64,000 nt of DNA from Channallabes apus (lineage: Eukaryota > Chordata > Actinopteri > Siluriformes > Clariidae), in assembly GCA_030522415.1 (NCBI GenBank), contig CM060124.1, forward strand, positions 29,050,954 through 29,114,953. The letters run 5' to 3'. Position numbers and translations under genes: made by a program. A model generated the notes under the pieces. That model did not search any database. It saw only the letters and a list, made by a program, of their open reading frames with translations, and was not told the DNA's origin. Shown here piece after piece: positions 51,925 through 63,073 of the stretch. How positions within the stretch are numbered: the stretch's first letter is position 1; each line of letters opens with the position of its first letter.

Positions 51925-52769
51925 TTAAACTACAGTGTTTCTCTGGCGGTATGGTGGAGGAGGCAAACTCGTACCTGGCCTCATGGCTTCAGCCTCTGGA
52001 GTATACTCCGGGTTCTTGTTAACACTAGACCGGACAGAACCGTTCTGCTTGTTCAGACTTTGCCTGTACAGGCTTGAATGGCAGCTCTGGGACGAGCTAT
52101 GAAGGTTCGCTTGGGATACTTTGAGTGGAAGACTATGTTGCCAGTATTCTGGGTTGTCAAAGGTCTTCCAGTACTTCTTGTCCACCAGCATCATTCCGGG
52201 ATGAACTTGCTGAGTAATGCTGCCTGAGGGGATCGGATGACCTGAGTGCCCACTTTTACCTGCAGCTATGGATTTTGCAGTATGGGCAAGTGGATCTACA
52301 GGACCAGGCTGCCCTTGGTGGTTGATGAGGCAAGGCTGATTTGAGGATACAGATTTGCTGGGATTTACATGGAACCCATGGAAAGAATGTTTATGATGGA
52401 CATTGTGGCTCATTGGTTCACTTTGAGGATGATGTACTGGTGGAATTGAGAAATGAACGTGCGGTCCTTGACTGCTGTAATATGATCTACCTTCTTTTGC
52501 CTGTGCAGTTAGTGGCACATGACTGACAGTCGTGCCGGCTGCTGTTGTGAACTGTAATGGGCCAGAAACTTCATTTTTCTTAAGTATCGCTTTATTTATA
52601 TTGCCTTTGTTGTGGAAGGTATTGAGATAAACAGGTTCATTATTGTACTTCTCGTCAGCCTTAGTAGGTCCATCAAATGTGCTGTGGTATGCTGGGTTCT
52701 CCAGTGGCAGAATTTCAACATTTTTTCTCAACGTCACAAAAGGGTTCTCTTCAACAGCATTCTGATGAT
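51925..52769 (-). CDS. erbb4: erbb4 last coding exon: C-terminal tail with PDZ ligand
   Basis: 845 bp, acceptor cttag. Starts DHQNAVEENPFVTLRKN; carries phosphotyrosine-type motifs ENPAYHS, EPVYLNTF, DNPEYWQH and KNPEYTPE, and ends PPPPYRQRNTVV then TAA at 51925-51927. TVV is the class I PDZ ligand of ERBB4. The tail keeps NPxY docking sites even though the kinase looks inactive, so it could be phosphorylated by a partner receptor. The Tyr of mammalian EYLNPVEENP is missing. Confidence 0.95.

Positions 52770-63073: not shown

Follow-up and report, generated by a model that had tools for sequence, protein, structure and literature searches.

Is an ERBB4 whose kinase motifs read HRN and EFG, where most other fish ERBB4 have HRD and DFG, a gene in decay, or a receptor that has been kept without catalysis? 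This question is raised by a window of 64,000 nucleotides from Channallabes apus (contig CM060124.1, positions 29,050,954 to 29,114,953 of the forward strand), in which a preliminary description proposed an ERBB3-like, signalling-only ERBB4 that had perhaps arisen after duplication. A kinase is regarded as a pseudokinase by sequence when one or more of the beta-3 Lys, the HRD Asp and the DFG Asp are lost. No pseudokinase ERBB4 of fish was found in the titles and abstract openings of the literature searched (mostly outside subscription journals, and without preprints). The ErbB copy number of a catfish has been treated, and catalytic residues are unmentioned in the accessible part of that report (PMC9702082).

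Gene Structure and Reading Frame

The minus strand of positions 51925-63073 of the window carries 15 exons of an ERBB4-type receptor, running from ectodomain domain IV to the stop codon. As the preliminary description stated, these exons are open; with the borders that we set, which give GT-AG at every intron, they join in frame into 896 codons including a single terminal stop, with no other stop and no frameshift. Domain IV is encoded by E13 (62941..63073, matched to the relative P0121, acceptor TTACAG, donor GTCAGT), E14 (62529..62622, CCAG and GTAAGA) and E15 (61899..62053, GTAG and GTAACT), the exon numbers being our own labels. They are followed by a juxtamembrane exon of 45 nt with the sequence DCIGFLD (E16, 61742..61786), a transmembrane and juxtamembrane exon (E17, 61412..61544, Pfam TM_ErbB1 in P0121) and the kinase exons, of which E18 (60157..60279) holds the Gly-rich loop LGSGTFGTVYK of the N-lobe, E19 (59969..60067) keeps the VAVK lysine (60019-60017), E23 (56329..56475) carries the activator-face helix CTIDVYIVMIKC of the C-lobe, and E24 (54878..54975) ends the domain. 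The tail starts in E25 (54632..54766), continues in E26 (53376..53652, acceptor CTGAACAG, donor GTAGAG) and closes in E27 (51925..52769) with PPPPY, the C-terminal PDZ ligand NTVV and the stop codon; its NTVV end and its NPxY sites, three in number, are retained as previously described. A frame break between E25 and E26 was considered and ruled out, since the Clarias gariepinus protein places the E26 acceptor at CTGAACAG, where the frame closes.

The 5' half of the gene was not found within the 64-kb window and should lie beyond its edge. A sister erbb4 copy elsewhere in the window was rejected: tblastn gave weak matches only (best 23667-23584, E 0.083 and 0.31-0.32), which were treated as chance because 10 of 40 shuffled queries reach E 0.32. 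Two minus-strand stretches downstream of the gene (23667-23584 and 21807-21627) show a faint likeness, at chance level and with stops nearby, to the start of an ERBB4 ectodomain (DLDQ...CE...), and may be the trace of a lost sister copy. We also identified an open Tc1/Sleeping Beauty-type transposase frame of 371 aa with HTH and DDE_3 domains (12092-13207, minus strand). The E17-E18 intron contains an extended CA-rich tract (60330-61270) with repeats resembling ccagattctaaaactgttattacaata, and the E20-E21 intron a UnaL2 LINE 3' element (57474-57527, minus strand).

Loss of Catalytic Residues

The catalytic-loop exon E21 (56722..56877) reads HRNLAARN and EFG, and the codons behind the two changes that the preliminary description reported are present in the minus-strand DNA: CAT CGA AAC for HRN, with the Asn codon AAC at 56838-56836, and GAA TTT GGG for EFG, with the Glu codon GAA at 56784-56782. 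A third loss lies in E20 (58526..58711, acceptor CCCCAG/ATGGTG, the slash marking the exon border), whose first codon, ATG at 58711-58709, places by alignment a Met at the alpha-C Glu site of most other ERBB4. Where a competent ERBB4 has the alpha-C Glu, HRD and DFG, the window therefore has Met, HRN and EFG.

These sites were compared in a fish ERBB4 alignment of 220 rows, made up of the window plus 219 listed proteins, counting isoforms. Among the matches listed, the HRD site is Asp in 213 rows and Asn in seven, namely the window, the five other catfish copies found of the same gene (Clarias, Pangasianodon, Neoarius, Tachysurus and Trichomycterus, together with the window called catfish b below) and Hoplias. 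The alpha-C site among the same matches is Glu in 187 rows, Met in four (window, Clarias, Pangasianodon and Neoarius), Thr in one (Tachysurus) and gapped in 28; Trichomycterus keeps the Glu and has lost one Gly of the Gly loop. All three active-type residues (HRD Asp, DFG Asp and DFG Gly) are found in 211 of these 220 listed rows, and the change of DFG Asp to Glu occurs in the window alone among them. The preliminary description suggested looking for both changes in related species, and this succeeded for HRN (5/5 of the other catfish b copies) but not for EFG (0/5), which is private to the window and, as it comes from this one assembly, could be a polymorphism or an error. For HRN, chance or sequencing error is unworkable, because the site is Asp in 213 of the 220 rows and the other catfish records agree. 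The beta-3 Lys and the catalytic Asn are kept in 6/6 catfish b copies, and the DFG Asp in 5/6.

The predicted exon E22 (56567..56630, 64 nt) was started from the first available AG (ATGAAG/TGG). The sequence upstream reads TCG ATGCCAATGAAG/TGG, with CG instead of AG at the expected acceptor and the first AG 12 nt further in; since the acceptor AG is missing at the expected start, the MPMK codons (56642-56631) are predicted to be skipped. The window, P0121, P0122 and P0124 lack this P+1 stretch; P0123 has it rewritten as VSIK, and Trichomycterus has it at full length. The splice choices at E22 may be prediction artefacts.

By the sequence definition, catfish b is a pseudokinase, the HRD Asp being lost in 6/6 copies and the DFG Asp in the window. 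With the HRD Asp, the alpha-C Glu and, in the window assembly, the DFG Asp lost, the window Erbb4 kinase is expected to lack catalytic activity, and the receptor would probably function in the manner of ERBB3.

A different pattern at the alpha-C site was observed in 26 of the 220 fish ERBB4 rows (P0175, P0177, P0187, P0242, P0253 and others), many of them isoforms, in which exactly the alpha-C Glu codon is absent (FMD/ALIM). It looks like a tandem (NAGNAG) acceptor, CAG/GAG, which would make the catalytic Glu optional in otherwise active-type ERBB4 genes.

Family Placement and Paralogues

The relatives are annotated proteins clustered at 90%, each of which may stand for several species. Among the matches listed, the best record was the Clarias gariepinus erbB-4-like protein P0121 (95% over the query, 96% over 891 columns), followed by score by Pangasianodon gigas (87%), Neoarius graeffei (84%) and Tachysurus fulvidraco (83%), then mostly by characins and gymnotiforms and, further down, by the catfish Trichomycterus rosablanca (64%). 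Against single-domain PDB chains, the kinase best matched erbB-4 (596.6 bits), and erbB-3 was absent from the best 60 rows, which does not indicate descent from the ERBB3 branch. Pfam identified L domains, furin-like, domain IV, transmembrane and kinase domains in the relatives P0121 and P0138, of which the window covers domain IV onward. A tree of 43 rows, which like our other trees contains ERBB4 rows only, united the window and the five other catfish b rows in one clade (100/100) nested inside the otophysan b copies, and erbb4b is the probable name of the window gene.

Seven further catfish proteins (P0234, P0241-P0245 and P0256) fall in the a clade. They represent an active-type second paralogue, as the preliminary description suggested seeking, HRD and DFG being present in 7/7 proteins (Clarias, Pangasius, Neoarius, Tachysurus, Silurus, Trichomycterus and Bagarius); the C. 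gariepinus record P0242, an isoform that lacks the alpha-C Glu, is active-type by HRD and DFG only. Characins and gymnotiforms possess two b-type lineages, X and Y, and the catfish b copies all belong to Y. Since Electrophorus has one X and one Y copy, both on a contig of 18,983,019 bases, X and Y appear to have arisen by duplication within one chromosome. No X-type copy of catfish was found among the matches listed (the best 120 of 2124 and the best 120 of 2639), which does not prove its loss. Chanos (P0157, P0214) and Triplophysa (P0134, P0150) each have two b-type ERBB4 on contigs of identical length, which cluster by lineage; these pairs would represent repeated duplications or gene conversion.

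Two other members of lineage Y carry lesions of their own, the Hoplias malabaricus erbB-4-like protein P0128 (HRN) and Electrophorus P0129 (DFS); unlike catfish b, these two and Electrophorus P0165 keep the alpha-C Glu and the P+1 length. In a tree of 25 rows built without the lesion columns, HRN requires two changes, and a single HRN origin for catfish and Hoplias was rejected by constraining Hoplias with the catfish (p-AU 0.0055); Trichomycterus is a long branch, and its exact placement is to be taken with care. The HRN of Hoplias is apparently separate from that of the catfish. The DFG Gly is replaced by Ser in two Electrophorus electricus records of the 220 rows (P0129 and P0165), and P0129, besides its DFS, is substituted at 12 near-invariant kinase columns. 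Another catalytic loss is possible in these two records.

Evolutionary Constraint

Under neutral mutation, the window frame would yield 0.048-0.057 nonsense changes per missense change. According to the branch lengths of the 43-row tree, 10.3-12.3 nonsense changes would be expected since the Trichomycterus split if the gene were neutral, and none was seen (P 5e-6 to 3e-5); since the siluroid ancestor, the expectation is 4.2-5.0, again with none seen (P 0.007-0.015). The window kinase differs from those of Pangasianodon, Neoarius and Tachysurus at 20, 27 and 26 positions, with a mean BLOSUM62 of +0.85, +0.85 and +0.81 against -0.41 expected (p printed as 0.0000, 2000 simulations each). Tail differences from the same three copies are weakly conservative (p 0.02-0.03); in comparisons with Trichomycterus and Colossoma, they do not exceed chance in this respect (p 0.18 and 0.53).

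The b and a copies were compared in five matched catfish pairs over ungapped columns, the window not being a row, with Pangasianodon b paired with Pangasius a, and Tachysurus fulvidraco b with T. vachellii a. Parsimony changes (b:a) were 142:50 in the ectodomain (ratio 2.8), 23:4 in the transmembrane and juxtamembrane part (5.2), 86:2 in the kinase (34.6) and 222:91 in the tail (2.4), the kinase departing from the ectodomain and the tail with Fisher p of 2e-7 and 3e-9. The likelihood version on a fixed tree gave 2.3-3.4 for the ectodomain, at least 29 for the kinase parts and 3.6 for the tail. Per site, the b copies show 0.31 changes in the kinase, 0.23 in the ectodomain and 0.71 in the tail. 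The ratios thus indicate that the kinase has lost its special constraint, yet it evolves little faster than the ectodomain and at under half the rate of the tail; part of the relaxation is gene-wide, because the b ectodomain, tail, and transmembrane and juxtamembrane part are also faster than in paralogue a. Changes are unevenly spread within the b kinase, at 0.55 per site for the catalytic loop plus activation segment and 0.22 for the C-lobe, where the release of constraint is weakest (binomial p 0.003). At least one of the five catfish b copies is changed at 55 of the 224 near-invariant kinase columns versus 29 of the 320 ectodomain ones (p 2e-6). The five paralogue a copies have no substitution at the 224 kinase columns; the window differs at 28 near-invariant kinase columns, two of which are deleted positions.

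Dimer Interfaces, Docking Sites and Comparison with ERBB3

All 50 conserved cysteine columns of the ectodomain are kept in 5/5 full-length catfish b relatives. The same five copies have Ser at position 248 of the dimerisation arm, where the 211 other rows have Pro in 200, Ser in two and a gap in seven. According to the accessible part of a previous study, residue 248 is Pro in ERBB4 and EGFR and Lys in ERBB3, and the site is linked to pairing preference (PMC1618406). Ser248 may shift the pairing of catfish b towards heterodimers. From its length and its DCIGFLD sequence, we take E16 to be the short, cleavage-insensitive juxtamembrane form; catfish b would accordingly not be expected to release a nuclear fragment. 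The short form is described as insensitive to cleavage and as the only form in teleosts in the part of the source available (PMC1618406).

Most tail tyrosines are kept in catfish b, and the tyrosine of DAEEY is Phe in 6/6 copies; the window reads DAEDF in E25, with Tyr in the rows compared outside catfish b. The ERBB3 tail carries repeated YxxM motifs for PI3K docking, and none was found in the window tail. The regulatory-spine, receiver-face and activator-face positions of catfish b were placed by us and are assumed here. On this placement, the spine residues His, Phe and Met are kept, and the activator face is changed at the M945 equivalent (Ile in five siluroids) and the V948 equivalent (Ile in two Clarias-type copies). 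The equivalents of HER3 I938/V945/M949, which we placed on catfish b via CTIDVYMVMVKCWM, are I, V/I and M in 6/6. The five receiver-face positions read L, L, M, M/V and V/M, three of five being changed and all hydrophobic; as the receiver face is not clearly broken, the sequence falls short of an obligate activator-only role.

In the accessible part of earlier work on HER3, its most noticeable features are that the alpha-C Glu is missing (His740), as is the HRD Asp (Asn815), its nucleotide is held by Lys723, Asn820 and Asp833 with an ATP Kd of about 1 uM, and it autophosphorylates weakly in vitro (PMC4718504), so HRN need not equal zero activity. Mice with Erbb3 D850N, which lacks the DFG Asp, were viable, while V943R activator mutants died, as far as the available text of another study goes (PMC9744554); ERBB3 can thus lose the DFG Asp and still work, which provides a precedent for tolerating EFG. 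In a third source, also accessible in part, HER3 is an obligate activator that uses its C-lobe, with I938/V945/M949 as the activator triple, to turn on HER2 (PMC8889928).

The human ERBB3 sequence has alpha-C His and HRN, the latter named in the preliminary description as the ERBB3 state. Catfish b resembles it in HRN, in the retained Lys and Asn, in the lost alpha-C Glu (5/6), in the retained DFG (5/6) and in the hydrophobic C-lobe activator positions; the Pangasianodon, Neoarius, Tachysurus and C. gariepinus copies possess the HER3 set, save for which residue replaced the Glu. Unlike human ERBB3, catfish b groups with ERBB4, has Met or Thr rather than His at the alpha-C site, an altered P+1, no YxxM and an NTVV end, and the window has also lost the DFG Asp. 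With teleost ERBB4 (paralogue a and non-catfish b), it shares the ectodomain plan, the tail docking sites and the NTVV end, whereas those receptors keep HRD and DFG. By analogy, the retained and lost parts of catfish b would fall on the same sides of the HER3 activator line, the receiver face being changed conservatively.

Proposed Function and Alternative Explanations

To judge from the sequences, a pseudokinase form of ERBB4 is maintained in all six catfish copies found, and we consider it likely, if some way from assured, that catfish Erbb4b is a predicted dead kinase serving as the ERBB3-like activator half of a receptor pair. In the likely route, duplication came first; the active paralogue would have kept catalysis, and the duplicate would have kept folding, pairing and docking. 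Catfish Erbb4b would bind a neuregulin-type ligand and pair with a catalytically active partner receptor (ERBB2, EGFR or the second ERBB4), its C-lobe would press on the partner N-lobe and switch the partner on, and the partner would phosphorylate the Erbb4b tail. The sequence side of the proposed ERBB3-like, signalling-only ERBB4 after duplication is consequently upheld, but the change predates this one fish and extends to other catfishes, HRN occurs a second time in Hoplias, and the signalling is what we infer.

The same receptor might instead be a ligand sink or dominant-negative partner that binds ligand and partners and damps signalling, its dead kinase being a folded dimer half only. This would suit the intact ectodomain of the relatives, the dead kinase motifs and the Ser248 of 5/5 full-length catfish b copies (Pro in 200 of the 211 other rows) at what the accessible part of PMC1618406 links to pairing preference; we find it improbable, as catfish b retains hydrophobic C-lobe activator residues, PPPPY, NTVV and the majority of its tail tyrosines, none of which a pure sink would need. 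A weakly active kinase, as HER3 is in vitro, appears quite unlikely: HRN with Lys, Asn and DFG would allow slow trans-autophosphorylation in most catfish, given the Lys and catalytic Asn of 6/6 copies, the DFG Asp of 5/6 and the HER3 precedent (PMC4718504, in the part available), but the alpha-C Glu is lost in 5/6, the P+1 MPIK is missing or rewritten in 5/6, the window lacks the DFG Asp, and Trichomycterus lacks the Gly-loop Gly.

We regard a slowly decaying, functionless duplicate as very improbable, although the faster evolution throughout, the E22 acceptor without AG and the several broken catalytic motifs would all agree with it. Neither the stops, the frameshifts nor the neutral pattern of a pseudogene were found in the 896 codons of the window, annotated full-length proteins exist in five other catfish, the kinase changes are conservative, and the rates are graded by domain. 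Decay of the window erbb4 thus seems disfavoured, and the decaying gene that the preliminary description held up as the counter-case does not agree with this constraint.

Implications for the ERBB Family

In a wider reading, towards which we lean only slightly, pseudokinase ERBB4 would have arisen at least twice in fishes (on the catfish stem and in Hoplias), and catfishes would have re-evolved the ERBB3 design position for position (HRN and alpha-C Glu loss), then dropped the P+1 stretch for tyrosine substrates and, in one Clarias-type species, the DFG Asp, giving a second obligate activator beside ERBB3. The catfish case would be a more recent recurrence of the ERBB3 switch, apparently of independent origin. 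To our knowledge, ERBB3, the textbook example of a receptor that signals after losing catalysis, made this change once, early in vertebrates, so its own path cannot be replayed. The fish copies present graded catalytic states, from intact (Colossoma) through HRN alone (Hoplias), HRN plus Gly-loop damage (Trichomycterus) and HRN plus Glu loss (siluroids) to the addition of EFG (window), which make the order of loss and the sufficiency of activator function testable in farmed catfishes. They also warn that not every ERBB4 should be annotated as an active kinase.
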